A program made the translations under genes and the position numbers. A stretch of 64,000 nucleotides of DNA, taken from contig NZ_CP030104.1 in NCBI RefSeq assembly GCF_003269425.1, positions 3,009,001 through 3,073,000 on the forward strand, in the 5' to 3' direction. The stretch's first letter is position 1. Each line of letters opens with the position of its first letter. The notes beneath the pieces were generated by a model, which was not told the DNA's origin, searched no databases, and was given only the letters and a program-made list of their open reading frames with translations. The stretch comes from Flagellimonas maritima (GTDB taxonomy: Bacteria; Bacteroidota; Bacteroidia; Flavobacteriales; Flavobacteriaceae). Below, piece after piece: positions 1 to 26,435 of this stretch.

Positions 1-613
1 TTTTCAACTTTAGTGCATCAAAAGAATCTGTTTTTATTCCGATCAATCCATATTTAGTTTCACCATTTTTTATAATCGTTCCGTTTATATTGTATTCCGA
101 CATTTCTTCCTTGAATTTTTTATTGGCCGAACCTGCTACTATCATATTTCCCCCTGCCAAACCTGGACCTAAAACCAATCCGATTGGTGTAGAACTCCTT
201 TCCTGTTGAAAACCATTTGAATTGGTTTCTGTTACATAAAAATTTACAGGTGTTAAAAGTAGATACCATAGATAAGAAGCAGGACTTTGCTTCAGTGTTT
301 TAAATACTTTTTGGTTTTCCATTACATAGACTTCGTTTTCATTTTCATAACTCAATTTTATATCTCTTCCGAACATTAAATCTTTTTCAGAGTTATTGGT
401 GACTTTAATAGCTACTAGTTTCACTCCTTTTTTTGTTTCTTTTTTTGCATACTTTTTATCCAGTAAGTCATATTTATATTCAAGTCTGACATCTTCAATT
501 TCATTCATTGAAATATAGTTAATGGATTTTGGTTCGATCAATTTGTAGCCGGATGCACAATTTGTTAAAGAAGAAACCGCAATAAACAGAAGGGTGATTT
601 TAACAATCTTCAT
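1..613 (-). CDS. Lipoprotein of unknown function (3' end outside window)
   Basis: The minus strand reads open from an ATG at 613 to the window edge, giving at least 204 residues. The N-terminus is a lipoprotein signal peptide: MKIVKITLLFIAVSSL followed by the lipobox L-T-N-C near residues 16-19. The mature part has a stretch typical of small secreted beta-rich proteins (VKVTNNSEKDL-like wording around residue 65) and a Gly-rich turn near residue 155. I do not recognise a family. It lies downstream of the Rhs cassette train after a 257-bp gap with no gene, so it is probably a separate unit that marks the end of the toxin locus. Confidence 0.7.
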   Translation of the reverse strand, partial: MKIVKITLLFIAVSSLTNCASGYKLIEPKSINYISMNEIEDVRLEYKYDLLDKKYAKKETKKGVKLVAIKVTNNSEKDLMFGRDIKLSYENENEVYVMENQKVFKTLKQSPASYLWYLLLTPVNFYVTETNSNGFQQERSSTPIGLVLGPGLAGGNMIVAGSANKKFKEEMSEYNINGTIIKNGETKYGLIGIKTDSFDALKLK

Positions 614-870: not shown

Positions 871-1425
871 TCAGGATAAAATTTTAGGTTCAATACTCAA
901 TTGGCTATAAAAGTCTACTTTCCATAACCTGATTTTGATTACTACGGGCATGGGCATCCCGTCGGGGTAGTAGTCCGTGTAGCCCTCCAAACTGGCATTG
1001 TTTCCATTTTTCATAAATACTGCCCTAACGTTGCCCAAATGATCGGTCATTTCATACACATAATTTTTAACGTCGTTCGCACCGTTATAGGCTATCCCGA
1101 TCCTTCCCGCCCCATAGATGGGCTGCTCCGTAAGGTTAAGGATTCCCGTGGCGTCGTTATATACCGCCATGACCTGCCCCGCCACGTCGCGTACGTAGTA
1201 GGTGGTGGCATAGTGGAAATTGTTCGCGGCATAGTGCTCCTTCTTTACCCTTTGGTTCCTGTCGTTGTAAAAGAACTTCACCACGGGGTCGCCGCTGCTC
1301 CGTACCTCGGTGACTAAGCCATTGGTACTGTACATATAGTCAATATCCTCGGTTATGTTGCATACTAGTTTATTCAAGAATTTACTTTTGCCAGTTGCTT
1401 CCTTAGCATATCCGCTACTGTCCAA
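871..1425 (-). pseudogene. Truncated Rhs core fragment (fourth displaced cassette)
   Basis: This 184-codon frame matches the Rhs core of the large toxin gene. It has the order ITEDIDYMYSTNGLVTEV, KFFYNDRN, YYVRDVAGQVMAVY, QPIYGAGRIGIAYNGAN, DHLGNVRAVFMKNG and YTDYYPDGMPMP. It has no signal peptide and no earlier core. It stops about 20 residues after the GMPMP motif, before the RLWD...RW...DP and DPDGG core end, so no toxin tip remains. The usual YPFGMPMP is YPDGMPMP here. It starts just past the stop of the 79-aa gene, the same position relative to a preceding immunity gene as in the other cassettes. It is best read as a decayed remnant. Confidence 0.75.
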
Positions 1426-1654
1426 AATGAAAAATTAATACTAAGAGAATTACAAAAACAAAAAGAGCTGCAATTCTATTCGCAGATTCTGTTTCAAGTT
1501 TTTTGTATTTACTACCGTCTGGAGTCCAAAATTTGGAGAACGGTTTAAAATCTTTCCCTTTGATTTTGTTTATGATGTTGGCAACAACATACCTAATAGA
1601 AGCACCTATAAGTTCAACAACAAATCTTCCAAAAATTATTTGAAAAATATCCAT
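1415..1654 (-). CDS. Small membrane protein, candidate immunity protein for tip 3
   Basis: This is a 79-residue protein with an amphipathic or hydrophobic N-terminus (residues 1-30), a basic middle and a strong C-terminal membrane helix (about residues 60-77, FVFVILLVLIF). No family is recognised. Its ATG overlaps the TAA of the preceding orphan Rhs tip as TAATG, the same coupling used by the resident toxin and its partner at 6293. That arrangement, its small size and its place directly after a toxin tip are the reasons for calling it immunity. Sequence alone does not show binding or protection. Confidence 0.5.
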   Translation of the reverse strand: MDIFQIIFGRFVVELIGASIRYVVANIINKIKGKDFKPFSKFWTPDGSKYKKLETESANRIAALFVFVILLVLIFHFGQ

Positions 1655-2601
1655 TAGTTATTATTGTTTAATTTTTCGGCCTGTGATTTTAAAGTATTCA
1701 TTAGTCTCTTTCCATGAATTTGGTCGGTGGCTTTGTTTATATTGATAATTATATCTCCTCTTGTTCTTGGGCTTAGTTTGGTCAAGAATGTCCCCTTAAA
1801 AGTAGTGCCGAACGTAGCAACATTCAATTTGGGCCCTGTAACCCTAAAACCTTTTAAAGGACTAGGTGTAAAAGTCAAAAAAGTATTTAGTCCTGCATTG
1901 AACTCTTCCTTGGGTGTAGCTCCAAAACCTGTCAAATGCCTTCCACCGTTTTTTGTGAAGTTTCTTGTACCATAAACATATGCATCATCAGCGATACCAT
2001 AAACCAAATCAAAACCAACTTTACCTCCTGGCACTTGATTAAGTGCAGGGTTGTACTCTGCAAAGGTTTGTAAATTTTCCGCCCAGTTAGGTTCATGTGC
2101 GGTTATAGTTGCAGGTAGATCATTTTTCCAAGCATTTGTAAAATTGAAAGTTACTGTTGCATCGGCATCTGTTGTAAACCCACTGGTAACAGAGGAAGTG
2201 TTGAAGCCCCATTCTCCTCCGCTTTTGTACAATTCACCAACTTCAAGCCCTGCCTTTATGGCTCTATTCCTTGCCCATTTTGCAAAAAGTTTCCATTTCC
2301 AGCCCCCGTCAGGGTCGATTCCATTTATTGGATCATTACCCATCCCTAGATAAGGAGAACTGTACTGTCCATAAGGATCCGTTGTCAACCACCTTCCAAT
2401 CCTGCTGTCCCATAACCGTAGCTCAAAGGCCTCTTTCCCCGTTTCTGGGTCCTTTTCCTGTCCCTGGAACGCGTAGCGGTAGCCCTCAGCCCCCAGCAGG
2501 CTCTTTCCGGGCATGGGCATCCCGAAAGGATAGTAATCCGTATAACCTTCAAGACTTGCATCGTTGCCGTTTTTCATAAAGACCGCCCTAACGTTGCCCA
2601 A
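1654..2601 (-). CDS. Orphan Rhs core fragment with C-terminal tip 3
   Basis: This is a displaced cassette of 315 codons. Residues 1-100 are Rhs core: GNVRAVFMKNGNDASLEG, YYPFGMPMPGKSLLGAEG, FQGQEKDPETGKEAFELR, LWDSRIGRWLTTDPYGQY and IDPDGG. Residues 101-315 are a new tip of unknown fold: a basic start (KWKLFAKWARNRAIKAG), a Gly/Phe/Thr-rich middle, and a Lys/Arg-rich end. Core homology begins abruptly near 2603, inside the GNVRAVF motif. There is no signal peptide or ribosome-binding context of its own, so it may be silent until recombined into the full gene. The candidate immunity gene follows with a TAATG overlap. The tip's activity cannot be deduced here. Confidence 0.7.
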   Translation of the reverse strand: MGNVRAVFMKNGNDASLEGYTDYYPFGMPMPGKSLLGAEGYRYAFQGQEKDPETGKEAFELRLWDSRIGRWLTTDPYGQYSSPYLGMGNDPINGIDPDGGWKWKLFAKWARNRAIKAGLEVGELYKSGGEWGFNTSSVTSGFTTDADATVTFNFTNAWKNDLPATITAHEPNWAENLQTFAEYNPALNQVPGGKVGFDLVYGIADDAYVYGTRNFTKNGGRHLTGFGATPKEEFNAGLNTFLTFTPSPLKGFRVTGPKLNVATFGTTFKGTFLTKLSPRTRGDIIININKATDQIHGKRLMNTLKSQAEKLNNNN

Positions 2602-2634
2602 GAATTTACCAATCGAGACATAGTTTAAATTTAC

Positions 2635-3132
2635 TTACTCCTTTTTCTTGAACAGTTTAAGTTCTCCCACTTCATAGATGCTATCGTGCGGGGGGCTTCT
2701 TAAGGTGTATATTCCTCTATAAATTGTATCTGGGATTTCTATAAATCTATTTCCCCCTCCAACACTACGATACTTTCCTATGTATACATTGTTTATTCCC
2801 TTAAAATCAGTATTTGTTTGGTATTTAAAGTTCTCATCTCCCCTCAAGCTATCAGTGTCGCTAGCTCGCCATTCCCCATACCTGAAGCCTTTTTCAATGA
2901 AAAAAGTGACACCTTCATTGATTTTAATTGTATCAGGGTCTATTTGGTAATCCAGTTCATACATGAATACCCCTCTATCTTTGGATTCTTTAATGGTTCT
3001 TGAATACCCTAATCCTCCTCCTACTTTATAGGCTCCTTTTCCTCCTGTAAAATATAGATATAGACCTATGGGAGCCAGTAATAAAATTCCCATTACTACC
3101 AATATTTTCAAGAATATTTTTTTACCTTTCAT
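2635..3132 (-). CDS. Membrane-anchored candidate immunity protein for tip 2
   Basis: This 165-residue protein has a Lys-rich N-terminus and one hydrophobic helix at about residues 8-30 (ILVVMGILLLAPIGLYLYF). A hydrophilic domain follows, predicted to be periplasmic, with many Tyr, Gly and Asp residues. It begins 4 bp after the stop of the orphan tip with a papain-like look (3137-4000). A periplasmic anchor is the location expected of protection against a cell-wall amidase, so the two predictions support each other, but this remains inference. No known family is recognised. The next cassette's core fragment begins about 30 bp after its stop. Confidence 0.5.
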   Translation of the reverse strand: MKGKKIFLKILVVMGILLLAPIGLYLYFTGGKGAYKVGGGLGYSRTIKESKDRGVFMYELDYQIDPDTIKINEGVTFFIEKGFRYGEWRASDTDSLRGDENFKYQTNTDFKGINNVYIGKYRSVGGGNRFIEIPDTIYRGIYTLRSPPHDSIYEVGELKLFKKKE

Positions 3133-3136
3133 GTAA

Positions 3137-4000
3137 TCAATCGTTTATCGGGGCCCCAAAATATCCTCGCCCAACTTCCACTGACGGAGTCAAAGGACTT
3201 GGTACCAAATTGTACATTCCATTGTTGTTGAACCAGCCAAAATTAATGAACCATTCGTTTGGTAGAATGTTCCCGAAATTGGGCCTTGTGAAATTTTTCC
3301 CTGTTGCCCTTAGGGCATCTTGTGCGACATCAAGACAAGAACCACCACAATCATCCCCATTATTGTAAAGTCCCGGGCTCACTGAATAATATGAATATAC
3401 TTGTGCGTATGCTGCCTCTGCTGCCAATGCATCTTGCTGGGGTGTAGTATTGACTCTTATATAATTATCATATCGTTCCCCATCTGGATGGTCTTCCATA
3501 TAGCGATTGTTTACAATCCGCATCACTTGTGATGCGGTCAATCCTGTTTTCCTGAAGTCATTGCCCGATAAATTATCTGGACCATAAGCCCCTGCTCCGT
3601 CATTTGGACTGTCGGATATACCATATAGACCGTGTGAGGCTGTTCCATTTTTAGAATAATATCTCCAACCATCTTTATCATTCCCTATTAAGACGGCCAT
3701 GTGGCCAAGACCGGCAACAGCCATACTTGAATTGAGAATGATAATGTCCCTACCATCAGGGTCTCCATAAAGAATCGGGTTGTTGCCCATTCCAAGATAT
3801 GGACTTGCGAATTCGCCCATAGGGTCGGTGGTGAGCCACCTGCCCAACCTACCGTCCCACAATCTTAACTGAAAGGCCTCCTTCCTAGTCTCGGGATCCT
3901 TTTCCTGTCCCTGGAACACGTAGCGGTAGCCCTCGGCTCCCAGCAGGCTCTTGGAGGGCATGGGCATCCAGAAGGCACTACTTTGGAAACGCATGGGCAA
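3137..4000 (-). CDS. Orphan Rhs core fragment with possible permuted papain-like amidase tip (tip 2)
   Basis: This is a displaced cassette of 287 codons. Core homology starts about residue 12 (MPMPSKSLLGAEGYRYVFQG) and runs through LRLWDGRLGRWLTTDP to GDPDG at residues 79-83. The tip then carries LGHMAVLIGND (His100) and, about 118 residues later, LYNNGDDCGGSCLDVAQDAL (Cys218 and Cys222). The order His first, Cys later, with Cys heading a helix, resembles permuted NlpC/P60 or LRAT-like thiol hydrolases. That would make it an amidase or peptidase toxin; this is motif-level inference. The first 11 codons are junction sequence overlapping the upstream immunity gene's 3' end. The partner at 2635-3132 follows after 4 bp. 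Confidence 0.65.
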   Translation of the reverse strand: MPMRFQSSAFWMPMPSKSLLGAEGYRYVFQGQEKDPETRKEAFQLRLWDGRLGRWLTTDPMGEFASPYLGMGNNPILYGDPDGRDIIILNSSMAVAGLGHMAVLIGNDKDGWRYYSKNGTASHGLYGISDSPNDGAGAYGPDNLSGNDFRKTGLTASQVMRIVNNRYMEDHPDGERYDNYIRVNTTPQQDALAAEAAYAQVYSYYSVSPGLYNNGDDCGGSCLDVAQDALRATGKNFTRPNFGNILPNEWFINFGWFNNNGMYNLVPSPLTPSVEVGRGYFGAPIND

Positions 4001-4493
4001 AATGTGAACTTGTTTTTTCCACCTTGTCCTCCGGGACGTATTCGGTGATCGTGTCGCAGAGCAGGCAGGTCACGATGATGTCCCCTTTGGCCGTGAAAAT
4101 TTTTGCGTAGAAGAAATCGTGCCAGAACAGAATTATGGTCCTCCCGTGACGGGCAGGTATGGACATGTGCAGGATGACCTTTTCAATGTCCTCCCTATAA
4201 AATTCAATAATTTTCTTTTCGCCGGTGAAAACAAAAGTCCCGGAATCTGGGTTAATCTCTAAAACTGAATCCTTATTCTCTTTCCAATAGTTCCAGTAAA
4301 ATGTCAACAAGGGGATATAGGATAGAATTGACTGACCAACTAGTAAAGCCAAAAGCACTTTTAAAGCTTTTTCAAAATTTAGGTCGTAATACCAAATACC
4401 TATAATTAACAGAATAAGGTCTATAGCTAAACCAATAAGTAATGGTTTATATAAATACCTGTATTTTCGATGGTTAGAAATAGTAAACTCCAA
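3978..4493 (-). CDS. Two-helix membrane protein, candidate immunity protein for tip 1
   Basis: This 171-residue protein has two hydrophobic segments, about residues 18-36 (LLIGLAIDLILLIIGIWYY) and 45-68 (VLLALLVGQSILSYIPLLTF). A soluble C-terminal part follows with a beta-strand pattern (LEINPDSGTFVF, EFYREDIEKVILH, IILFWHDFFYAKIF) that looks like the PH-like or YcxB-like domains common in bacterial immunity proteins. It starts 11 bp after the orphan tip at 4505-5866. Only about ten bases separate its stop from the next core fragment. Its role as immunity protein is inferred from position and topology. Confidence 0.5.
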   Translation of the reverse strand: MEFTISNHRKYRYLYKPLLIGLAIDLILLIIGIWYYDLNFEKALKVLLALLVGQSILSYIPLLTFYWNYWKENKDSVLEINPDSGTFVFTGEKKIIEFYREDIEKVILHMSIPARHGRTIILFWHDFFYAKIFTAKGDIIVTCLLCDTITEYVPEDKVEKTSSHFAHAFPK

Positions 4494-4504
4494 AACTGTC
4501 CGTT

Positions 4505-5866
4505 CTAAAAATAGTTAAAATTATTACTATTAATTTGCCCACCTGACAGATAGTACTCAAGATTTTCCGAGGACAGGCTCTGGGTGTTCTGCTCCACGTT
4601 CCCGTGTATGTCCATATGTACATCGCTTGCTTTGGCCTCTACGTTATAGGCCCTGTCGTACATAATCCCATCATAGGTATATTCTCCGGCTGCATAGATC
4701 AAGCCTACCGTAAGGCCCGGCAAACCACCATATATGGAGGTCACATAAATCGATGAGCCTATCCCGACCGTTCTATAGGAATACCTTCCTACTCCGATAT
4801 CTCCATTGACCAATTGAGCAGTGTTTGAAACAAAGCTCACGGCATTTAAAGTCCTTCCTAGAGCTCTTGTTCCAGTCTGCACTGCCCTTAGCTCCTTTGT
4901 AGCGACCTCCGTCAAGCTCTTGGCTCTAAGGCTTTCTTTCAAATAGTCATTCAATATGGTGCCGTATGTTGCATTTATGGCCTTTGCGCCCATTAGTCCT
5001 CTGTTGATGTCGTTCATGTTGAAAAAGGAATTGTTCATTTGGGATTGTAACGCAAAATTGTTTTGCATGCCATTCGAGATATTTGGGGCAGTTACCGTAA
5101 CCTCGGCCAAGGTGAACCCTTCGGTAATGCTATTCCCGTTCTGGCAGGGCGGATTCGGGCAGTCCATACCGCCATCCGGATCTACACGGTTGACAGGGTC
5201 ATTGCCCATTCCTATATAGGGGCTTTTGTATTGCCCATAGGGGTCGGGGGAGAGCCACCGCATTATCCTCGGATCGTACATCCTGAGCTCGAAAGCGTTC
5301 AACCCGGTTTCCTCGTCCTTTTCTGCATATTGCCCTTGGTACCCATATCTATACGCGTTTGCGTCCTGTATCTGCTTGCTGGGCATCGCCATCCCGCCAG
5401 GATAGTAGTCCGTATAACCCTCCAAACTGGCATCGTTTCCATTTTTCATAAATACTGCTCGTACATTGCCCAAGTGGTCCGTAAGCTCATAAATATAGTT
5501 TTTAGCGTTGTTCGCTCCGTTGTAGGCAACGCCCACACGTCCTGCACCATAAATGGGCTGTTCCGCCAGAACCAAATTGCCCCCTGCATCGCTGTACACC
5601 GCCATTGTCTGTCCCGCCACATCGCGTACATAGTAGGTGCTGCCCTTCAATATATTATTTTCATAGTTTTCCTTGCGCACCCTATGGTTCCTGTCGTTGT
5701 AAAAGAACTTTACCAGGGGTTCACCCTCTTTTTGTACTTCCGTTACCAGTCCGCTGGCATTATAAATATAGGCAATATCCTCAGATGTGTTGCGCACCAG
5801 TTGCCCTATGGTGTTGTACATGTAGTTTCCACTTTTTTGATCGCCCAGATCGTCCGCACCGTCCAC
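4505..5866 (-). CDS. Orphan Rhs core fragment with C-terminal tip 1
   Basis: This is the largest displaced cassette. The frame opens after a TAG near 5895 and has no ATG; the first possible start is GTG at 5866. Residues 1-233 are Rhs core, and 5418-5879 is almost identical in DNA to the resident gene. After YTDYYPGGMAMPSK the core diverges (YGYQGQYAEKDEETGLNAF, MYDPRIMRWLSPDPYGQY) up to VDPDGG. The tip (residues 234-453) has a PCPNPPCQN-type start, an alanine-rich helical part and a Gly/hydrophobic stretch (about residues 365-400) that could insert in membranes. Its function is unknown. The partner is probably the two-helix protein at 3978-4493. It is probably not expressed as a free protein. 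Confidence 0.7.
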   Translation of the reverse strand: MDGADDLGDQKSGNYMYNTIGQLVRNTSEDIAYIYNASGLVTEVQKEGEPLVKFFYNDRNHRVRKENYENNILKGSTYYVRDVAGQTMAVYSDAGGNLVLAEQPIYGAGRVGVAYNGANNAKNYIYELTDHLGNVRAVFMKNGNDASLEGYTDYYPGGMAMPSKQIQDANAYRYGYQGQYAEKDEETGLNAFELRMYDPRIMRWLSPDPYGQYKSPYIGMGNDPVNRVDPDGGMDCPNPPCQNGNSITEGFTLAEVTVTAPNISNGMQNNFALQSQMNNSFFNMNDINRGLMGAKAINATYGTILNDYLKESLRAKSLTEVATKELRAVQTGTRALGRTLNAVSFVSNTAQLVNGDIGVGRYSYRTVGIGSSIYVTSIYGGLPGLTVGLIYAAGEYTYDGIMYDRAYNVEAKASDVHMDIHGNVEQNTQSLSSENLEYYLSGGQINSNNFNYF

Positions 5867-5879
5867 GTCACCGGCATCG
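5418..5879 (-). repeat. Near-identical direct repeat of Rhs core, copy in orphan cassette 1
   Basis: Bases 5418-5879 match 7659-8120 at a constant offset of 2241 bp with about six mismatches seen by eye, roughly 98-99% identity. Similarity drops sharply on both sides. Downstream of this copy the core continues in a divergent form. The sharp edges indicate a recent duplication or gene conversion. Confidence 0.9.
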
Positions 5880-5924
5880 CTGCCGTGGTTAATCTATAAG
5901 TTTTATCGGGTTTCGTTGTGAAGA

Positions 5925-6293
5925 CTACCTTAAAAAAGGCACTACCAAGGTCAATAAAAAAAGAATTATAATAACGATTAATAAAACCCTGCTATTTTTT
6001 CTATGCTCATCATCGGATTGATTCTCGTAATGAGAGATGATTTTTTGAAATCTGTTTTTGGTATAAACAAATACAATATTTATCACCATCAAAGAGATAA
6101 ACCCTATAATATAGATAGTTTTACCTACATAATCGAAAAAGCTGGCCCCAAATAATTTGTCAATTACAAAATCCAACAAAGAAAAAACAAAGACCATCAA
6201 AACCCCTATTATCATTGCGGATGTGGTGACAGGGGTTAAACTCTTTGAGTTCAGCAATGACCTATATATATAATAAAACGTGAAACGGTACAT
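5925..6293 (-). CDS. Multi-pass small membrane protein, candidate immunity partner of the resident Rhs tip
   Basis: This 122-residue protein has hydrophobic segments near residues 22-42 (TTSAMIIGVLMVFVFSLLD), 54-77 (YVGKTIYIIGFISLMVINIV) and 104-119 (LLIVIIILFLLTLVV), so three membrane helices are likely. Its ATG overlaps the TAA of the 1975-aa Rhs gene as TAATG, so translation is probably coupled. Its position immediately after a polymorphic tip makes it the candidate immunity protein. No sequence family is recognised. Confidence 0.55.
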   Translation of the reverse strand: MYRFTFYYIYRSLLNSKSLTPVTTSAMIIGVLMVFVFSLLDFVIDKLFGASFFDYVGKTIYIIGFISLMVINIVFVYTKNRFQKIISHYENQSDDEHRKNSRVLLIVIIILFLLTLVVPFLR

Positions 6294-9200
6294 TAATCAT
6301 CAATCCTTTTATTGTGAACCAATATCGAGTTAGCAAAGAATGTATGGTTTTTCTCTACAAATTCAACATTGTACATATCCACATATTCACCTGTATCTCT
6401 CAACTCTTTTATAATAGCTCTCTTTAGTGTTCCATTATCGTAATAGAAAACCGTATCATTTGCTTCTAACTGTTTAACAGAAAATGACAACTCGGTTTCG
6501 GCCTCTTTCAAGTCAAAAACACACCAACCCTTATCAATCACCCAATATGGATGAGCAGGTGAAAAGTCATTTGTTGTCCCGTTTGAAAACGTAGCCACAA
6601 TTTTTCGATATTTTTTAACATAATCGGGTATTTGTACAACAATATCCTTTTCGATAATCATCATATCTATATCAACGCTCATAATTTCATCCCCCACAAC
6701 AATATCCTCTATATTCTTCTCGCTACCATCTGACATCAACACTTTAGTCCCCTTAACAAAACAAGAGCCTGGAAACATGGGTTTAATTCTTTTTTTATTA
6801 CCATTTCTACCTGTAACAACATAACCTTCCTCGGCTTTTTTCACGGCATTTTGCATTATTCTTGTGTGAGCTTGACCCATACTGCTATTAGCATATAGCT
6901 TAACTCCTTCAACGCTTACTGCCATGGCAAACCCCGCAGGGCCTCCAAAAGTACCGATTACACCTAAACTTGTATTTTGTGTAAATGTAATACCATTTTC
7001 GACAGTTGGTGCTTTGTTCAAGTTATAAAGATTTACTGCAGTTTGTGTATAGAAAAATCCTTTACCTGCTATATCTAAACCTTTTCCAACCGCTCCCAAC
7101 ACTTGGGTATTGATTTTTGCTTGGTTCACCAAACTTCTAGATACGGACTGGTTTCCATAAAAATTTGTGTTCCATGATAAATTTTGACCACCATAATTAG
7201 CAATAAATCTATTGCTTTTTAATGCGTTTGTGTAACTGTCCAAGGGCATCAATAAATTACTGGTGCCAACACTTAAACTTAGAAGGTTATTCGCATCTCC
7301 AATGGTGTTGATTGTATCGCTCATTCCAGATTTATCAATACCTAAAACTGTTACACCGTCCAATTGGTTCGGGCCCGTGGTAACCCAATCGTCATCACAG
7401 CATCCGTCGGCAAAACCACCATCTGGGTCAATCATTGAGATAGGATTGTTCCCCATCCCTAGATATGGCGAACTATATTGTCCATAAGGATCCGTCGTCA
7501 ACCACCTCCCAATCCTGCTGTCCCACAACCGCAGCTCAAAGGCATCCTTCCCGGTCTCGGGGTCCTTTTCCTGTCCCTGAAAGGCATACCTGTAGCCCTC
7601 GGCTCCCAGCAGGCTCTTGCCCGGCATTGGCATACCGAAGGGGTAATAGTCGGTGTATCCCTCCAAACTGGCATCGTTTCCATTTTTCATAAATACTGCT
7701 CGTACATTGCCCAAGTGGTCCGTAAGTTCATAAATATAGTTTTTAGCGTTGTTCGCTCCGTTGTAGGCAACGCCCACGCGTCCTGCACCATAAATGGGCT
7801 GTTCCGCCAGAACCAAATTGCCCCCTGCATCGCTGTACACCGCCATTGTCTGTCCCGCCACATCGCGTACATAGTAGGTGCTGCCCGTCAATATATTATT
7901 TTCATAGTTTTCCTTGCGCACCCTATGGTTCCTGTCGTTGTAAAAGAACTTTACCAGGGGTTCACCCTCTTTCTGCACTTCCGTTACCAGTCCGCTGGCA
8001 TTATAAATATAGGCAATATCCTCAGATGTGTTGCGCACCAGCTGCCCTATGGTGTTGTACATGTAGTTTCCACTTTTTTGATCGCCCAGATCGTCCGCAC
8101 CGTCCACGTCACCGGCATCGTCGTCCACCCAGCTTAGCCTGTTGGGCCGTTTTATGTCGTAATTGTAGGTAAGGTCGTCCATATGGGTCTTGCCCCCGTT
8201 GTTCCCCTTGTTCCGTAACAAGCTCAGTATGTTGCCGTTGGCGTCGTAGGTAATGTTCCCTAGATCATATGCATTGTCATTATCTGCACCGGGAGCAAAA
8301 TCGGCCGCGGTGAGCCAGTTGTTTCGGTCATAGCTGTATACATATTGGCTTTCCTGTGAGCCGTTGACCTGGGTCTGCCACCGTATGCCCTTAATGTTGC
8401 CGTTAAATTGGTCGTTGCCTTGGGTAGCGGTAATAATGTTATTGTTTTCGGTACGTTGGTAATCGCCCAAATGATAGTCCAGCTGCATGCCAAAAAGGTC
8501 GTTGGCATCACCACCGGGATCCTGTGCGGGATCTAGCGAGGGGTGGTTGATGCTCTTGAGCTGCCCGGCAAGGTTGTACACATAGTCCAGCCCTTGCGCC
8601 CCATCGGCAATTTCTTTACGCACCAAGGTACCGGCATCGTTGTAAAGATACTCTGTGTGCAGTTCAAAAGTATTGTCGTCCACGGAGTTTTCCACCCGTA
8701 CCAGTTGGCCCCGGTCGTTATAGGTATAGCGATGGACAAACCGGTCTTCTTGGCCCTTTTGGTAGATGACCTTTTGTACCTGCCCGGTAAGGGGTTCGTA
8801 AGCATAGTCGATAGTTTTTGGCCCGAGCCCTTCAATATCCTGTACCAGCCACTTTACCCTGCCATAGCCATCATAACTGTAATAGGTGGTGGATCGGTCA
8901 TTGGCCGTCTTGGCCACGTTGCCCGCCAAAAAGGAGGGGTGCTGGTGGTCCGGGTCCAGGTTGACCAAAAAATTATTGTCCTCCGTATCCAAAAAGTCAT
9001 AGCTTGTGGCCATGGTCTCTTTTTTAACGGCCTGTGGCAGGGAGCCATCAGGGTCCAAATTGGAGAAATTGACATTGACAAGCACCCCACTTTCCACAGG
9101 GCGGGCAAAATTGTCGTAATCGGTATAGGATACTTCGTCCGCCAATGCCTGTTCGCTGTTCTGCGAATAGCGTATCTGGCCATCGTTGCGGTATTTGAAC

Positions 9201-12200
9201 TCGGCGGTGCCCTCATCCGGGCTGGTGGTACGTAAAAGCTGCCCCAAGGTGTTGTACTCGTAGGTGGTGACCAGTCTGTCCCCGTTTGCATCTTCAATGG
9301 GCTGGTAAGATGCCACCAACCTGTTTGCTTTATCGTATTTGTTGAGACTATAATCGTAATAATTGACAAAGTACCTTACAAAAATGGTGTTTGGCTCATA
9401 GTTTTCCGGTTCATCCACGGCCACCCTGTAAAAACCCGGGGGGAGGTTGCCCATGGGGGTCTGTTCCAACGCATCGGTAATCAGGTTGTAAACTGTGATT
9501 CCACTATCGTCACTGACCCATATTCCCATATCCACTCCTTGGGGAATATGAATGTCCACATAGCCTTGGGCTCCTATAGGGATCATGTGTTCGGAGACCT
9601 CTCCGTTATCGCCGGACCTTGCCGCTGCCAACAGCTTTCCGTCGGTGTCCAGAAAGACTACGCTCTCGTTCCCGTGTACATCGCGTGTAACGGTCTTTAG
9701 GGTGTTTAGTTTCGTATAGTCCGTGTCCCCTTTGGCTTGGGCTTCCCCAAAGGCCGTTTCCATGGAAAGTTCATCGGAGGCGGGCATGGTAAAGCTATAG
9801 GCTTGGGCCCATCCATCCTCCGGTGTTATGTTGTTATCTTTATTGGTGTCCACTTTATTGCCACCGACAAGGGCACGGGCGGTACCGGGATTGAGTTCGC
9901 TGAAAACGGTGCGTGAAAAAGGGTAGGGGGTAACGTCTTGATATTGGTGCGAGGTGGCCCCACTATAATATTGTGCCAGTGGCCCGTCGCCGTTCACGGC
10001 ACTGGGATCAAATAGGTCTATATCAAAGTCTGCCGTATTGTATTCCCCACCTTGGTCATCCGTAATTATGGAGGGATGGTACTGAAACTGAAGCTGTCCG
10101 GGCAAGGGTGCGGACAGGGTGGACAGGGCCGCCCTTCCTTGGTAGTCATAGAGGGTCACTTGGCCCCAGATGGCATTGGTGACCACATCCCAACTCTGTG
10201 TCTGTACGTGCTTGCCCAGATCGTTATAATATCTTCTTGTGTTTCCCCTAAGATTGGTTTCCATATCATAATCCCAAACGGTGATGATGTTCCAATTTTC
10301 CTCTTCCGGTTGTTCCGGCTGTTCTGGCTGTTCCGGTTGATTTGGATCTTCATCCACGGTCAAGTCAATATTGTGTCTTATAAGGACGAGGTCGTCTATG
10401 ATGTCGCTGGTCATAACGCAATGGTAGGTACCGGCATCTTGTAGGCTTGAGTTGGCGATTTCGTAGTCTGGGGAATCCGGTGCGCCGTTAATGGGTTGCC
10501 CATCCTTGAACCATTGGTAATGGTTTTGTGTGCCGGATATGGAGGTGGTCAAAGTAATGTCTTCCCCTTCCACAATTTGTAGTGCCTCGGGCTGATCGGT
10601 TTTTTGCTGGGGGTCGTAACTTAATGAATTTCCATTGAAGTTCTGATAAGTGTATTCCAAGTTGCCAAAATCGAATTTATTGTTTTCGGTCGAGAAAAAT
10701 GAGATGGGAATCTGGTCGATTATTTCTGGGGGAATGTTACCGCTTAAATTATTATTATTAAGGATAAGAGTTGTGAGGATATTTAGGTTTCCCAGTTCTG
10801 GAGGAATTGCACCTTTTAAATTATTATTATCAAGGATAAGAGTTGTGAGGATATTTAGGTTTCCCAGTTCTGGAGGAATTGCACCTTCCAATGCATTGTG
10901 GCGTAAAGAAACATATTTCAGGTTCGATAAGTTACCAAGTTCCGGTGGAATGGTCCCGCTTAGTTCATTGGATTGAAAACTAAGACTTGCCAAATTGGAA
11001 AGATTGCCCAATTCCATAGGGATGTTTCCACTTAGCGAATTATTATGAAGTGAAAGTCTTTCTAAGTTAATAAGATTACCCAGTTCAGGGGGAATGGGTC
11101 CACTAAGCATATTGGAATTGATATCCAACTGTTCCAAGTTGGAAAGATTTCCAAGCTCTGCAGGTATAGGCCCATCGATTAGATTATCCTGAAGATTAAG
11201 ATATACTAGTGTTGACAAGTTTCCCAGTTCCGGGGGTATCGGACCCTCAATTTTATTGTTGGAAACGTCGAAAATAACAACCGAAAGATTGCTCAGTTCG
11301 GAAGGTATGTGTCCGCTAAGCTTATTGTTATAGAACGAAAGAGAAAACAAATTCGATAATTGACTGAGTTCTGAAGGAATTGACCCTTCAAGAAGATTAT
11401 TGACCAATGAGAGTTGGGAGAGGTTCGTTAGGTTTGCCAGCTCCGGTGGGATGTTGCCCGATAAATTGTTTCCTCCGAGCTTCAGGTCCACCAAGTCTTG
11501 GAGGTTTCCCAATTCAGGAGGTATTGTCCCATCAAATTCATTGGTCTGCAGGGTAAGTGTCACCAAATTCGTCAAATTTTCCAGCCCTGGGGGAATAGGA
11601 CCGCTAAGCATGTTGTTTTGTAGACTAAGATATAATAGGTTGGAAAGATTGTTCAGCAGTTCTGCGGGAATGGAACCGTTAAGCTTGTTGGAGGCAAGGC
11701 TGAGTGTGGTAAGGCTTTCCAGATTGCCCAACTCTGGAGGAATGGGACCTGTAAGGTCGTTACTGGTGAGCCTAAGTTTGCTTAAAGCTAAAAGATTGCC
11801 CAGTTCTGGAGGAATGGGACCGCTCAAATTATTCCAAAAAAGATATAGAAATTCTAATTCTGATAAATTCCCAATTTCGCTGGGAATGCTTCCAGAGAGT
11901 TCGTTTAATGATAGATTGAGCAGTGTAAGATGAACCAAGTCTCCAATACTGGGAGGAATAATTCCCTCTAGCTCATTGAATTCCAGATCAAGTTCCGTTA
12001 CATGGCCATTTTGTACGGTGACCCCGTACCAATCGTTGGTAACGATATCATTAAAATCCCATTCGTCTCCTATAAAATTATCCGTTTCCGTGGCCCAATT
12101 GGGGCCGTTTGTGGCATTATAGAGGTCCTGCAGCGCCTGTTTTTCTGCTGGCGTCACCTGGGCCTTTGCCAGCAGAATACCTGCCAATAGGATAGTAGTT

Positions 12201-12220
12201 AAAACTAATTTAAGTCTCAT
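6293..12220 (-). CDS. Giant LRR-Ig-YD/Rhs polymorphic toxin with Hint-terminated tip
   Basis: This 1975-residue exported protein has these parts in order: a signal peptide (1-20, LKLVLTTILLAGILLAKAQ); leucine-rich repeats of the plant-like IPPELGNLxxL type (about 70-510); an Ig-like domain (about 540-625, with DAGTYHC); a PEQ-rich linker (about 630-640); YD/Rhs repeats (about 645-1500); and the Rhs core with DHLGNVRAVFMKNG, YPFGMPMPG and LWDSRIGRWLTTDP, ending at IDPDGG near residue 1600. The variable tip runs 1603-1975. Its last about 160 residues are a Hint/intein-like domain: CFVKGTKVLMSDGS, SPAHPYWV, and a terminal ANSILVHNK with His-Asn. Nothing toxin-like follows the Hint domain. It follows the SpvB-like giant by 38 bp. 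LRR and Ig parts may bind target cells; this is inferred. Confidence 0.85.
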   Translation of the reverse strand: MRLKLVLTTILLAGILLAKAQVTPAEKQALQDLYNATNGPNWATETDNFIGDEWDFNDIVTNDWYGVTVQNGHVTELDLEFNELEGIIPPSIGDLVHLTLLNLSLNELSGSIPSEIGNLSELEFLYLFWNNLSGPIPPELGNLLALSKLRLTSNDLTGPIPPELGNLESLTTLSLASNKLNGSIPAELLNNLSNLLYLSLQNNMLSGPIPPGLENLTNLVTLTLQTNEFDGTIPPELGNLQDLVDLKLGGNNLSGNIPPELANLTNLSQLSLVNNLLEGSIPSELSQLSNLFSLSFYNNKLSGHIPSELSNLSVVIFDVSNNKIEGPIPPELGNLSTLVYLNLQDNLIDGPIPAELGNLSNLEQLDINSNMLSGPIPPELGNLINLERLSLHNNSLSGNIPMELGNLSNLASLSFQSNELSGTIPPELGNLSNLKYVSLRHNALEGAIPPELGNLNILTTLILDNNNLKGAIPPELGNLNILTTLILNNNNLSGNIPPEIIDQIPISFFSTENNKFDFGNLEYTYQNFNGNSLSYDPQQKTDQPEALQIVEGEDITLTTSISGTQNHYQWFKDGQPINGAPDSPDYEIANSSLQDAGTYHCVMTSDIIDDLVLIRHNIDLTVDEDPNQPEQPEQPEQPEEENWNIITVWDYDMETNLRGNTRRYYNDLGKHVQTQSWDVVTNAIWGQVTLYDYQGRAALSTLSAPLPGQLQFQYHPSIITDDQGGEYNTADFDIDLFDPSAVNGDGPLAQYYSGATSHQYQDVTPYPFSRTVFSELNPGTARALVGGNKVDTNKDNNITPEDGWAQAYSFTMPASDELSMETAFGEAQAKGDTDYTKLNTLKTVTRDVHGNESVVFLDTDGKLLAAARSGDNGEVSEHMIPIGAQGYVDIHIPQGVDMGIWVSDDSGITVYNLITDALEQTPMGNLPPGFYRVAVDEPENYEPNTIFVRYFVNYYDYSLNKYDKANRLVASYQPIEDANGDRLVTTYEYNTLGQLLRTTSPDEGTAEFKYRNDGQIRYSQNSEQALADEVSYTDYDNFARPVESGVLVNVNFSNLDPDGSLPQAVKKETMATSYDFLDTEDNNFLVNLDPDHQHPSFLAGNVAKTANDRSTTYYSYDGYGRVKWLVQDIEGLGPKTIDYAYEPLTGQVQKVIYQKGQEDRFVHRYTYNDRGQLVRVENSVDDNTFELHTEYLYNDAGTLVRKEIADGAQGLDYVYNLAGQLKSINHPSLDPAQDPGGDANDLFGMQLDYHLGDYQRTENNNIITATQGNDQFNGNIKGIRWQTQVNGSQESQYVYSYDRNNWLTAADFAPGADNDNAYDLGNITYDANGNILSLLRNKGNNGGKTHMDDLTYNYDIKRPNRLSWVDDDAGDVDGADDLGDQKSGNYMYNTIGQLVRNTSEDIAYIYNASGLVTEVQKEGEPLVKFFYNDRNHRVRKENYENNILTGSTYYVRDVAGQTMAVYSDAGGNLVLAEQPIYGAGRVGVAYNGANNAKNYIYELTDHLGNVRAVFMKNGNDASLEGYTDYYPFGMPMPGKSLLGAEGYRYAFQGQEKDPETGKDAFELRLWDSRIGRWLTTDPYGQYSSPYLGMGNNPISMIDPDGGFADGCCDDDWVTTGPNQLDGVTVLGIDKSGMSDTINTIGDANNLLSLSVGTSNLLMPLDSYTNALKSNRFIANYGGQNLSWNTNFYGNQSVSRSLVNQAKINTQVLGAVGKGLDIAGKGFFYTQTAVNLYNLNKAPTVENGITFTQNTSLGVIGTFGGPAGFAMAVSVEGVKLYANSSMGQAHTRIMQNAVKKAEEGYVVTGRNGNKKRIKPMFPGSCFVKGTKVLMSDGSEKNIEDIVVGDEIMSVDIDMMIIEKDIVVQIPDYVKKYRKIVATFSNGTTNDFSPAHPYWVIDKGWCVFDLKEAETELSFSVKQLEANDTVFYYDNGTLKRAIIKELRDTGEYVDMYNVEFVEKNHTFFANSILVHNKRIDD
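7659..8120 (-). repeat. Near-identical direct repeat of Rhs core, copy in resident toxin gene
   Basis: This is the partner of 5418-5879. It encodes the part of the core from about DDAGDVDGADD to ASLEGY. Recombination between the two copies would remove 2241 bp, including the resident tip and its immunity gene, and join the long gene to tip 1 in frame. Confidence 0.9.
10746..10889 (-). repeat. Tandem 72-bp duplication of one leucine-rich repeat
   Basis: Copies 10746-10817 and 10818-10889 differ at only about three bases. Each encodes one 24-residue repeat with the same GNLNILTTLIL core, the first followed by NNNNLSG and the other by DNNNLKG. The other repeats in the array are much more divergent, so this unit was duplicated recently. 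Confidence 0.85.
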
Positions 12221-12258
12221 AATGTGTTTGTTTGGGTATATATTTTTGTTTTAACTTT

Positions 12259-18509: not shown

Positions 18510-18511
18510 AT

Positions 18512-20250: not shown

Positions 20251-20658
20251 ATGCATTTTTTGCAAAAAAGGGTGCATGCCCTTAACCTTCAGGAAACCCT
20301 GATAGTCTTGGCCATCATCGGTATTTTACTATTGTTGGCCTTGCCGAACCTTATGCCCTTGATATCCAAGGCAAAGAGCATTGAGGCGCAGACCCAGCTC
20401 AAAGCTATTTACAATTCCCAGACAACACATCGGTATATGTACAGTAAGTTCACCCAGGATATCGGTGAGCTTGACTTTGTTCCCCCTAGGACCGTAAAGG
20501 AAAATGGTACGGCAAACTATAGGTACGAGATATTGGCGGCTACTGATGCTACGTTCAAGGCCAGGGCCGAAGCGGTTACAGATTTTGATGGAGATGGTAT
20601 CTTAAACGTATGGGAAATAGACGAGAACGGCAACCCAAAACAGATAATCAAAGACTAG
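20251..20658 (+). CDS. Type IV pilin-like / pseudopilin protein
   Basis: This 135-residue protein has a class III signal: a short basic leader (MHFLQKRVHA) and then LNLQETLIVLAIIGILLLLALP. Processing after Ala10 would place the conserved Glu at +5 of the mature protein, with Ala instead of the usual Gly at -1. After the N-terminal helix comes a short globular part with a Ca-binding-like DFDGDGI loop near residue 115, as in the C-terminal loop of GspG major pseudopilins. It is the first gene of a secretion operon and overlaps the start of its peptidase. It would build the piston or pilus fibre. Confidence 0.8.
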   Translation: MHFLQKRVHALNLQETLIVLAIIGILLLLALPNLMPLISKAKSIEAQTQLKAIYNSQTTHRYMYSKFTQDIGELDFVPPRTVKENGTANYRYEILAATDATFKARAEAVTDFDGDGILNVWEIDENGNPKQIIKD

Positions 20659-21140
20659 TGTTTATACTTCAACTGCTCACCATGATGGGCTGCGGTATTG
20701 TGGCAGTTCAAGACTTTAAGGATAGAGAGGTTATATGGATATGCTTCCCAATTATCGGTGTATTGTTGGCTTGCCTGCATGCACACCGATTGGGATTTGA
20801 CCACTTTGTTTTCTTCGCATTGAACAACATTGTATTGGTCAGTTGTGTATTGGCACTGCTCTGGACCATTACCAAGTTTGTCTTTAAAAAAGAGTTTTTG
20901 AATGTTAGCTTTGGTTTGGGCGATATGCTCTTTATATATGCCTTCGCCCTGGGTTTTCCAACGGTAACCTTCATTATTCTCTTTGTGGGTTCCATTCTTT
21001 TTTCTCTGTTGGCCTTCATCATACTAAAAATGTTCACTCAGGCAAAAACGGTTCCCTTGGCAGGGTTTATGGGAATTTTTCTGATTAGCGTACTGCTTCT
21101 GGCATTTTTGCCAAACACTCCTTCGCTCTATTCAATCTAA
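20658..21140 (+). CDS. Type IV prepilin peptidase (A24 family)
   Basis: The chosen start is GTG at 20658, which overlaps the TAG of the pilin gene (TAGTG) and gives 160 residues. A start further upstream at 20610 would read through the pilin 3' end. The protein is a hydrophobic multi-helix membrane protein with the two aspartate sites of the A24 aspartyl peptidases: VQDFKDREV near residue 20 and the GLGDMLFIYAFALGFP GxGD motif near residue 98. It lacks the N-terminal methylase domain of full-length PilD, as short A24 members do. It should cleave the pseudopilin encoded just upstream. The ATPase gene starts directly after its stop. Confidence 0.8.
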   Translation: MFILQLLTMMGCGIVAVQDFKDREVIWICFPIIGVLLACLHAHRLGFDHFVFFALNNIVLVSCVLALLWTITKFVFKKEFLNVSFGLGDMLFIYAFALGFPTVTFIILFVGSILFSLLAFIILKMFTQAKTVPLAGFMGIFLISVLLLAFLPNTPSLYSI

Positions 21141-22556
21141 ATGCAGAACAATTCCTATAAAATAGCGCCACATCTACAACAGCGTATTTCTGCTGATCAA
21201 GCCTTTCACTATAGAATCGTGCCGGTGGGTATCGAGGGGGATACACTTCGGCTTAAGACCGATAGTGAATCCTTACAGGAACTTTTGACCGAGCTTAACA
21301 TTGTTCTGAATTCCCATGTTTTGTTAGAGCAATGCCAAACGGGAGAAATGCAGCAATATTTGACCGCAAACTACAGGCAACATGCAAAGACGGAAATATC
21401 CCAACTAGGATATTCGAAGGATTTTTTGAAAAGAATATTGCTTGAGGCCAAAGGTATAGGGAGCAGCGACATTCATTTTGAACCCTATGAGGACAGGTGT
21501 AGGGTTAGATTACGGATGGATGGCAAATTATTGGAATATTACACCATTCCTATTAAGGATTATCCTACCATGGTCAACAAAATAAAGATAAGGGCCAATC
21601 TGGACATTGCGGAGAAACGGTTGCCACAAGACGGGAGGATTAGTGTAAACTCCAATGGGCAAGATTTCGATATACGGGTTTCTTCATTACCAACATTACA
21701 TGGTGAAAAATTGGTTTTGAGAATTTTGAGTCGGGATTCAGCAATTGTAGATCTGGAAGAACTTGGAATGACTTCCGAAGATTTAGTCCGATACAAGAAT
21801 GGTATAAAGAAACCAAATGGCATCGTACTGATATCGGGGCCAACCGGTTCCGGTAAGACAACGACCTTGTACGCCACGCTAAAAATATTGAACGATGGCA
21901 CTTCAAACATACTTACCATAGAGGATCCCATAGAGTACACTCTGGAAGGGATCAACCAAGTGCAATTGAAGGAGAACATCGGCCTTGATTTTGCCAGTTC
22001 GTTGCGTACTTTCTTAAGACAGGACCCAGATATTATTATGGTAGGCGAAATTAGGGACGTCAAAACTGCAAATATGGCCATCAGGGCCGCACTTACGGGT
22101 CATTTGGTGCTTTCCACCATACATACAAACTCGGCATGGGGTACTGTTTCCAGATTGATTGACATGGGGGTGCCAGCATTCTTGATCGCCAACACCCTTA
22201 ATATGAGCATTGCCCAGCGTTTGGTTCGAAAACTGTGCAGTTGCTGTAAAAAGAAGATAAAAGTCAATAAAGATACTTTTCCGGCTGATTTTTCCGCTCC
22301 CAAAAATCTGAAGCACCATTTTGTTGCAAAAGGGTGCAATGATTGTTATCATACAGGATACAAAGGGCGAAAAGCCATTTACGAAATCCTTGCCATTGAT
22401 AAGGATTTGGAGATATCTATAAAGGAAAACAAACTGCAAATAGATAGTTATTTAAATCATAATGATATCCCAACGCTAAAAACCAATGCGATTGATTTGG
22501 TTGAACATGGCATTACTTCCATTGAAGAGGTCTACTCCTTATTAAGTAGTCGATAA
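21141..22556 (+). CDS. gspE: Type II secretion / type IV pilus assembly ATPase (GspE/PilB family)
   Basis: This 471-residue cytosolic ATPase powers pseudopilin assembly. It shows SSDIHFEP and VRLRMDGKL (about 112-130), RLPQDGRI, Walker A GPTGSGKTTTLYATL (about 233-247), the Asp box LTIEDPIEY, Walker B DIIMVGEIRD (about 296-305) and the His box LTGHLVLSTIHTN. A tetracysteine zinc site lies near the C-terminus (LCSCC and GCNDC), a GspE/PilB feature. The N-terminal domain is short. The ATG follows the peptidase TAA with no gap, and the secretin gene starts immediately after its own stop. Confidence 0.93.
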   Translation: MQNNSYKIAPHLQQRISADQAFHYRIVPVGIEGDTLRLKTDSESLQELLTELNIVLNSHVLLEQCQTGEMQQYLTANYRQHAKTEISQLGYSKDFLKRILLEAKGIGSSDIHFEPYEDRCRVRLRMDGKLLEYYTIPIKDYPTMVNKIKIRANLDIAEKRLPQDGRISVNSNGQDFDIRVSSLPTLHGEKLVLRILSRDSAIVDLEELGMTSEDLVRYKNGIKKPNGIVLISGPTGSGKTTTLYATLKILNDGTSNILTIEDPIEYTLEGINQVQLKENIGLDFASSLRTFLRQDPDIIMVGEIRDVKTANMAIRAALTGHLVLSTIHTNSAWGTVSRLIDMGVPAFLIANTLNMSIAQRLVRKLCSCCKKKIKVNKDTFPADFSAPKNLKHHFVAKGCNDCYHTGYKGRKAIYEILAIDKDLEISIKENKLQIDSYLNHNDIPTLKTNAIDLVEHGITSIEEVYSLLSSR

Positions 22557-24731: not shown

Positions 24732-24733
24732 AC

Positions 24734-25939: not shown

Positions 25940-26435
25940 GAACAGGGTACTTTTGGGAGGTTTTTTGGTGATGCTTTTTTTGAGTTATTTTTTAGCCGTT
26001 AAAGAAACCATGAAGCTTAGGGCCCAGCTCCTTTCTTTCAAAAGCAGACAAGAGGTATCGATGAATATCCCAGGACAGCTTCACAGACTTTCAAATAAGG
26101 AAAAGGATATTGATTTAAAGTTTAAGGAGTTGAACCTTGCTACTTCTTCTCGGCAGAATCATTTGATTAAATATCTAAATCGTATTTCTACGATAAACAT
26201 GGTAAAAATCATTGAGTTTAGGTCGCCACATCTGTTTCGGCAAGAAAATTCAACAAACAAAACCCATATTTTCACCTTGGAAGGCTACTTTTTGGATATA
26301 CTCAAAGTCGTATATGCTTTGGAAAAACAAGGGAGTTTTGGAGCGGTTTCACATATTTCCTTTGAAAAGAAAAAGGACCATCGAAGTGGAAAGAACTATT
26401 TGCAGGCACTTGTTTTTTTGGAGCATATTCAATAA
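25923..26435 (+). CDS. PilO/GspM-like inner-membrane protein
   Basis: The best start is the ATG at 25923 (MKLNNRNRVLLGGFLVMLF), 170 residues, overlapping the previous gene by 17 bp. An in-frame TTG at 25914 is less likely. One membrane helix (about 9-27) is followed by a coiled coil (about 28-80) and a small periplasmic alpha/beta domain. This is the layout of PilO and GspM, which pair with PilN or GspL in the inner-membrane platform. It is the last gene of the operon. No GspF/PilC-like gene follows, and the YebC gene converges after about 110 bp. Confidence 0.65.
   Translation: MKLNNRNRVLLGGFLVMLFLSYFLAVKETMKLRAQLLSFKSRQEVSMNIPGQLHRLSNKEKDIDLKFKELNLATSSRQNHLIKYLNRISTINMVKIIEFRSPHLFRQENSTNKTHIFTLEGYFLDILKVVYALEKQGSFGAVSHISFEKKKDHRSGKNYLQALVFLEHIQ

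Follow-up and report, generated by a model that had tools for sequence, protein, structure and literature searches.

Displaced tip cassettes in a probable polymorphic Rhs toxin locus of Flagellimonas maritima and its linkage to a type II secretion-like gene cluster

The window analyzed here is a stretch of 64,000 nt from Flagellimonas maritima (NZ_CP030104.1, assembly GCF_003269425.1, positions 3,009,001-3,073,000), and all feature coordinates count from its start. It harbors a complete gene for a large Rhs protein of 1975 amino acids (aa), the resident, behind which four pieces of the same core end follow on the same strand, a train with the orphan layout of Rhs and contact-dependent growth inhibition (CDI) loci. 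We consider it highly probable that this is a polymorphic Rhs toxin locus shaped by cassette displacement, with probable export by a machine resembling a type II secretion system (T2SS). The host genome is a single contig of 3.77 Mb, which led us to reject assembly collapse as the source of the train; its nearest named relatives belong to Allomuricauda and Flagellimonas.

In the mechanism that we propose, the complete gene would encode a secreted YD/Rhs protein with one active C-terminal tip, accompanied by its immunity protein. New tip-immunity cassettes would recombine into the conserved core end (around DHLGNVRAV...YYPFGMPMP...DPDG), each entry shifting downstream what had stood there before, namely core end, tip and immunity gene. 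The displaced units, three in number, would represent tips that were once resident or came in from elsewhere; they persist as intact frames, no signal peptide is seen on them, and the train could serve both as an immunity store and as a reservoir of tips. For export, the protein would first use Sec and after that the T2SS-like machine encoded around the locus.

Anatomy of the resident gene and its train

The resident protein matches LRR_1 (9.8e-41), Ig_3 (5.3e-7), RHS_repeat (6.4e-7) and Hom_end_hint (7.5e-9) of Pfam, and its Rhs core is recognized by TIGR03696 at aa 1525-1601 (1.6e-13; 51.0 bits against a cut-off of 32.5, which applies to the displaced units as well). Signal peptides on the Rhs pair, formed by the resident and its YD-repeat partner, were called by eye. 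Additional matches of the resident to type III effectors and LRR kinases arise from its LRR part and were set aside. The coordinates claimed in a preliminary description of the stretch all proved correct (Table 1). Its central proposal, an orphan CdiA/Rhs layout on an LRR-Ig-YD scaffold, is borne out by core copies that follow in order, carry unrelated tips and are joined by co-travelling small genes.

Table 1. Features of the Rhs locus and of the genes around it (window coordinates unless stated otherwise)
Feature	Position	Strand	Remarks
Complete resident Rhs protein, 1975 aa	6293..12220	-	signal peptide (by eye), LRR, Ig, YD/Rhs core, tip R, C-terminal Hint
DYYPFGMPMP codons of resident core	7622..7651	-	break site of unit 3, unit 2 and remnant homology
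Tip R, aa 1603-1815	6776..7414	-	blastn homology of the A. chongwuensis orthologue stops at 7414
Hint domain, resident C-terminus, aa 1816-1975	6296..6775	-	Pfam Hint/intein matches
Resident small membrane gene, 122 aa, 3 hydrophobic stretches	5925..6293	-	start overlaps toxin stop (TAATG)
Displaced unit 3, core fragment + tip 3 (tip 4508-5167), 453 aa	4505..5866	-	TIGR03696 1.1e-15, 57.9 bits
Small membrane gene of tip 3 (imm3), 171 aa, 2 hydrophobic stretches	3978..4493	-	
Displaced unit 2, core fragment + tip 2 (tip 3140-3751), 287 aa	3137..4000	-	TIGR03696 41.8 bits
Small gene of tip 2 (imm2), 165 aa, N-terminal hydrophobic stretch	2635..3132	-	
Displaced unit 1, core fragment + tip 1 (tip 1657-2301), 315 aa	1654..2601	-	TIGR03696 7.4e-14, 52.0 bits
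Small membrane gene of tip 1 (imm1), 79 aa, 2 hydrophobic stretches	1415..1654	-	start overlaps unit 1 stop
Core remnant without tip	871..1425	-	homology ends at 946 in GMPMP codons
YD-repeat partner, 1886 aa	12259..17919	-	signal peptide (by eye); directly upstream of resident; RHS_repeat 3.3e-5
Three small accessory genes	17910-18509, 18512-19126, 19116-19691	-	last OmpH-like, OmpH 8e-22
Divergent T2SS-like half	20251..26435	+	pilin-like, putative prepilin peptidase, T2SS-E, secretin, 24734-25939, 25914-26435
Accessory lipoprotein gene	1..613	-	runs 8 bases out of window
Second T2SS-like half	outside window, L097 11697-16743	same as train	downstream of train; T2SS-F, pilin-like genes, partners

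The copies of the core differ widely in their similarity to the resident. Positions 7616-8120 of the resident core and 5375-5879 of unit 3 share 96.2% DNA identity over 505 bp, compared with 81.5% for unit 1 (2303-2602) and 76.5% for unit 2 (3752-3975). The remnant (about 946-1370) is 74% identical to the resident and likewise to unit 3, and TIGR03696 gave no match on its frame at 871-1425. Since the E-values are 9.5e-39 or better, chance similarity does not account for the copies. DNA matches to the resident core (604 bases) amount to five pieces in the host genome, all of them in this locus, and a profile search places more distant Rhs cores elsewhere in the genome (among the matches listed).

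The preliminary description had counted four displaced tip cassettes; three of them are complete units, and the fourth is the core remnant, which ends in the GMPMP codons without a tip. It had also put each core start about 10-60 bp behind the preceding small gene. Measured from the last base of the small gene to the onset of core homology, the gaps of unit 3 (~ 45 bases), unit 1 (18-32) and the remnant (44) agree with this, and that of unit 2 (2 bases) does not. The breaks themselves gather at one site: unit 3 tracks the resident until just past the GMPMP codons, after which its core end has diverged, and at the corresponding codons the homology of unit 2 begins and that of the remnant ends. 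A related tendency was seen in 77 named loci of relatives (flanks of at most 10 kb, often shorter), where we scored as displaced a core match in a separate frame of fewer than 650 aa, on the same strand and at most 10 kb behind the previous one. Such pieces occur in 14 of the 77 loci, 20 in total, and 14 of the 20 start at model positions 95-150 of 199, the block from DHLGNVRAV to YRYAFQGQ; this clustering is a tendency only, because detection and contig ends bias the count.

Tips 1, 2, 3 and R begin directly behind DPDG or DPDGG, where the preliminary description had drawn their boundaries. Beyond this motif they are mutually unrelated, each matching itself alone among the copies in the window (tip 3 against tip R, E 0.91). 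The frames of all three displaced tips are intact and no signal peptide is seen on the displaced units. Their first in-frame start codons are GTG in unit 3 and TTG in units 1 and 2, as also in the remnant; of the four small genes, three have an ATG start, and all encode a hydrophobic stretch. That no tip could be recognized with certainty still holds for tips R, 1 and 3. For tip 2, a permuted NlpC/P60 (TseH/YiiX-like) cysteine hydrolase is a candidate fold with moderate support.

No trace of a fourth tip was found behind the remnant: positions 601-960 contain no same-strand frame open for more than ~ 50 codons, and a tblastx comparison (E 0.05) with the loci fetched from other genomes yielded no relative of these positions. 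We weighed whether the lipoprotein gene at 1-613 could have served a lost fourth tip as its immunity gene and ruled this out, as its relative in locus L037 sits upstream of the Rhs pair, behind no tip. Relatives of this gene occur at three named Rhs loci, upstream of the pair in L037 and downstream of a core in L088 and L089. For the resident small gene, a membrane protein, we do not claim a Bfi1-type immunity function, the NCBIfam match (4.6e-10) reaching 39.6 bits against a cut-off of 100.

Tip exchange between species

One genome per species was compared, so that exchange is seen between species rather than between strains. Different tips on the same core, which the preliminary description had anticipated for a comparison of loci, are indeed found at this level. 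Tip 2, displaced in the window, is the resident tip of the orthologous complete gene in Flagellimonas sp. 389 (locus L028), with 55% identity for the tip and 43% for the adjoining imm2. By blastn, this gene follows the window with 73.1% DNA identity up to 7620, behind the GMPMP codons. In Allomuricauda chongwuensis (L020), the same upstream genes precede a resident that is likewise of LRR-Ig-YD build but bears another tip, and the species has a train of its own, with five core pieces; the homology of its resident gene (71.4% DNA identity, blastn) ends at the first codon of tip R.

The train of A. chongwuensis holds cassette 1 alone of the cassettes in the window, with 86% identity for the tip and 82% for the small gene. 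At the DNA level, the match reaches 81.0% over 1142 bp and ends at the last base of the small gene, and the neighbors of the cassette differ on both sides between the two trains. Because the cassette is more similar than the orthologous toxin body, this suggests a transfer of cassette 1 between lineages. Contigs of Flagellimonas sp. 389 other than that of L028 (L024, L081) bear a tip 1-like unit (43%; in the L024 train) and a unit that combines an NlpC/P60 tip (PF00877, 3.7e-10) with a lipoprotein-like small gene. At a contig edge of the same genome lies a core whose initial 30 tip residues match the resident and then give way to a new tip. A tyrosine recombinase-like gene, called by eye, is located at L081 3468-4430 of this species, ~ 2.2 kb behind a tip and its small gene, and may bear on cassette movement.

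Tips and small genes recur together also outside these species for tips 1, 2 and 3; no such pair was found for tip R. A tip 3 relative (37% over 83 aa), which runs off the contig edge, is directly followed by an imm3 relative (28%) in genome G236 of another genus (L102), and a tip 1 relative by an imm1 relative (31%) in G182 (L107). In G179, two imm2 relatives (62%) stand beside a tip 2 remnant (L104). Tip 1 relatives occur on complete Rhs genes, and tip 2 is found on nine proteins (the entry of the query included) with different Rhs scaffolds, from Flagellimonas to Hymenobacter. Tip R has a single weak relative (26-31%), in another genus. Their occurrence is sporadic, the four tips being present in 1, 1, 1 and 2 of 198 other Flavobacteriaceae genomes, surveyed with one genome per genus.

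Exchange may not be confined to the core end. In the tip 1 relative P0013, the first part of the tip is kept and then continues into a PF14412 toxin domain, which would be a second exchange point inside the tip; CdiA-CT likewise has a second exchange point within the tip. The Hint domain may also be exchanged as a module like the tips, as an Olleya locus (L082, 1072-1533) carries a Hint 66% identical to that of the resident and tip R is not found there.

It is conceivable, though we lean slightly away from it, that the train is chiefly an immunity store, the small genes being kept and expressed for defense and the tip fragments being passive leftovers. The ATG starts of three of the four small genes, compared with TTG or GTG in the displaced frames, fit this idea, as do published data on the expression of orphan CdiI (PMC3150448, in its accessible part) and the ~ 15-kb run of small genes in G179 (L177), which includes two imm2 relatives. 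However, the tip frames of all three displaced units are open, a state that demands some use or a recent arrival. The run in L177 (~ 4400-19800) lies between Rhs and T2SS genes, consists mostly of membrane protein and lipoprotein genes by eye, includes by eye relatives of the A. chongwuensis immunity candidates as well, and resembles a polyimmunity array.

Linkage to a T2SS-like gene cluster

The genes on the two sides of the locus together resemble the T2SS of Bacteroidota of the Cytophaga hutchinsonii type, of which secretin (Secretin, 6.1e-36), E ATPase (T2SSE, 8.3e-128) and F platform (T2SSF, 1.1e-43) are all above the Pfam cut-off. Below the cut-off are the matches of the pilin-like gene of the divergent half (Pilin_GH, 5e-6), of gene 24734-25939 (PilN, 0.006) and of the second half (N_methyl, 0.0026). 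The putative prepilin peptidase (20610-21140) is named by its position, and the Pfam scan gave no match for it.

The association of these genes with Rhs cores extends through the family. A T2SS-F relative is present in 20 of the 77 named loci, including some from Aquimarina, Croceitalea, Flavivirga and Winogradskyella; in 19 of the 20 it shares the strand of the core. In the survey of 198 genomes, 38 were positive for T2SS-F, and 37 of them also contain an Rhs core (among the matches listed, with a profile that also picks up other Rhs lineages). The co-occurrence gives a Fisher p of 2e-24, taken without correction for relatedness and assembly quality. G108, the sole T2SS-F genome without a counted core, carries a more distantly related Rhs at the corresponding position.

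Physical proximity was compared as well. An Rhs core on the same strand, no more than 20 kb away on the 5' side, accompanies 24 of 31 close T2SS-F places (at least 45% identity; two from the own genome, and one, in G189, partial). The other seven comprise G197 twice with the core on the opposite strand, contig 22 of G207 with the core on the 3' side, G179 with the core ~ 34 kb away, and G116, G128 and G189, which reach contig ends. Control stretches on the 3' side, taken for 20 of the 37 fetched places (19 close, one from the group described next), contain a core in 1 of 20 (G207). Some fetched stretches are shorter than 20 kb owing to contig ends, L198 contains 1633 N, and short extra T2SS-F fragments in G209 and G189 were left out of the counts. 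A group with T2SS-F of 33-39% identity and a different gene order (G238, G155, G143, G216, G118, G095, G173, contig 38 of G207, G254, G131 and G138) was kept apart; 10 of its 11 places were fetched, and one (G216) has a same-strand core on the 5' side. In G238, G173, G118, G131 and G095 (T2SS-F 34-37%), a frame of 3000-3600 aa with an Rhs core lies ~ 25-32 kb downstream on the same strand.

Within the genus, 11 other genomes carry a T2SS-F with 64-75% identity, and 10 of these clusters were fetched. Nine of the ten orthologous clusters have a same-strand Rhs core in the slot, and seven of these nine cores are just 27-34% identical to that of the window, a further one giving no tblastn match. 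T2SS-E is present in all four further genomes examined, A. chongwuensis and Flagellimonas sp. 389 included. On the basis of this linkage, the Rhs protein is probably exported via the T2SS-like machine. A broader proposal is that what is called the "T2SS" in Flavobacteriaceae is an exporter dedicated to polymorphic Rhs toxins of two proteins, with a slot in its gene cluster where toxins are exchanged, the machine staying constant while pair, tip and train turn over; in our view, this might equally well prove right or wrong.

Other routes of export were weighed against this linkage. It appears unlikely that the Rhs protein leaves by a type IX secretion system (T9SS), the route suggested for TANFOR toxins, or by a type VI system (T6SS), with the T2SS-like cluster as a mere neighbor. 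SprA is encoded in the genome (2907 bits), and T9SS is viewed, in the accessible part of PMC7073777, as the widespread two-step system of the phylum. Yet neither protein of the Rhs pair has a C-terminal T9SS domain match in Pfam or NCBIfam, the resident C-terminus consisting of tip and Hint. For T6SS, the genome gave no match to the VipB sheath (the control was positive in E. coli only, and the model may miss a divergent T6SS) and no PAAR match in Pfam. A role as mere neighbor also sits poorly with the difference between 5' sides and 3' controls across genera (24/31 versus 1/20) and with a second cluster of the same layout that encloses a different Rhs pair in this genome.

Several observations count against a displaced-toxin locus with T2SS-like export. 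The toxicity of the tips and the protection by the small genes are predictions from sequence. No relative of tip R was found at E 0.001 among 847 candidates, and its presumed exchange is read from the homology break only. The small gene behind the tip 1-like unit in L024 shows no match to imm1. In-frame ATG codons are present further inside the displaced frames, which may therefore be translated. Concerning export, 20 of the 160 family genomes without T2SS-F have an Rhs core (among the matches listed), meaning that the linkage is not strict, and G058 has no core within 20 kb of its T2SS-F. In Flagellimonas sp. 389, unrelated genes follow the train (L024) and the T2SS halves lie on other contigs; in A. 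chongwuensis, the T2SS F half is upstream.

That the displaced units are independent, expressed non-toxin genes left by tandem duplication of the Rhs end is very improbable: the intact frames of 315, 287 and 453 aa and the 96.2% identity between unit 3 and the resident core are what recent duplication would give, but the parts behind the cores are unrelated to one another, no signal peptide is seen, the first in-frame starts are TTG or GTG, and the two closest train-bearing relatives do not have these units as a conserved set, tip 2 being resident in one of them.

Relation to known systems and neighboring genes

Comparisons with published systems refer to the accessible parts of the papers cited. 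Arrays of dissociated tips are described for enterobacterial rhs loci (Jackson 2009, PMC2935791), and orphan cdiA-CT/cdiI and rhs-CT/rhsI modules have been reported (Poole 2011, PMC3150448). As in these enterobacterial modules, core fragments lie behind a complete gene on its strand, each complete unit bearing an unrelated tip and a small putative immunity gene, the fragments show no export signal, and tips 1 and 2 occur on complete genes elsewhere. Unlike them, the locus is found in a Bacteroidota host, on an LRR-Ig-YD scaffold with a YD-repeat partner, has its breaks in the YYPFGMPMP/DPDG core end and lies inside a T2SS-like cluster. In Salmonella Typhimurium, with a main and an orphan rhs, recombination can reload the main gene (Koskiniemi 2014, PMC3967940). 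The order of an orphan tip and immunity gene behind the main gene is shared, with three units and a remnant in the window, where reloading was not observed.

The train by itself is of modest novelty, being a published orphan layout now in Flavobacteriaceae. It extends tip displacement from enterobacterial Rhs/CDI loci to a marine Bacteroidota lineage, in which two species show one and the same tip in the resident and in the displaced state. The part worth following is the linkage to a type II-like machine. For polymorphic toxins, the T2SS/Sec label in Zhang 2012 (PMC3482391) is a default that rests on the signal peptide, and the table in its accessible part gives no neighborhood genes. The resident shares with those toxins the signal peptide, RHS repeats, HINT and tip-immunity order, and differs in that T2SS genes are physically linked to it. 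A putative T2SS is on record for C. hutchinsonii and other Bacteroidetes (PMC5553014), and the T2SS of the phylum forms a branch separate from the remaining T2SS (PMC6668835). Like that putative system, the cluster has E, D, F, G-type and prepilin-peptidase-like genes with divergent partner proteins; unlike it, for which the accessible text names no toxin cargo (PMC5553014), it encloses an Rhs pair and a train. TANFOR toxins of Bacteroidetes (PMC7073777) are similarly large, with a signal peptide and variable C-termini, and differ from the resident, in which an Rhs core is present and no T9SS tail was matched, the TANFOR model not having been searched specifically. Among the matches listed, no literature links Rhs/YD repeats with type II secretion in this phylum, in a search that covered titles and abstract starts, also on T2SS in Flavobacteria, and left most subscription papers outside; this gap is weak evidence that the link is new. 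A paper on Flavobacterium columnare genomes (PMC5524665) contains each of the two terms a single time. If the linkage is functional, it would provide cargo for a secretion system of the phylum and make toxin delivery by type II-like machines directly testable. If the dedicated-exporter proposal is true, it would define a class of polymorphic-toxin delivery by genes, beyond the signal peptide alone.

The YD-repeat partner of the resident has a same-strand relative in 63 of the 77 named loci (tblastn). With regard to a possible split cocoon of the TcB/TcC type, the sequence of this 1886-aa protein gave no match to solved structures at E 0.1. Same-strand relatives of the three accessory genes, in the order of Table 1, occur in 5, 44 and 32 of the 77 loci. 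Lipoprotein-like genes also accompany the second T2SS-like half outside the window, downstream of the train and on its strand. The second T2SS-like cluster of the host is located at contig positions 285,883-306,275, and its Rhs pair (1445 and 1091 aa) is accompanied by one small gene. Another Rhs core, at 2360988-2361623 in a 1751-aa frame, is far from both clusters.

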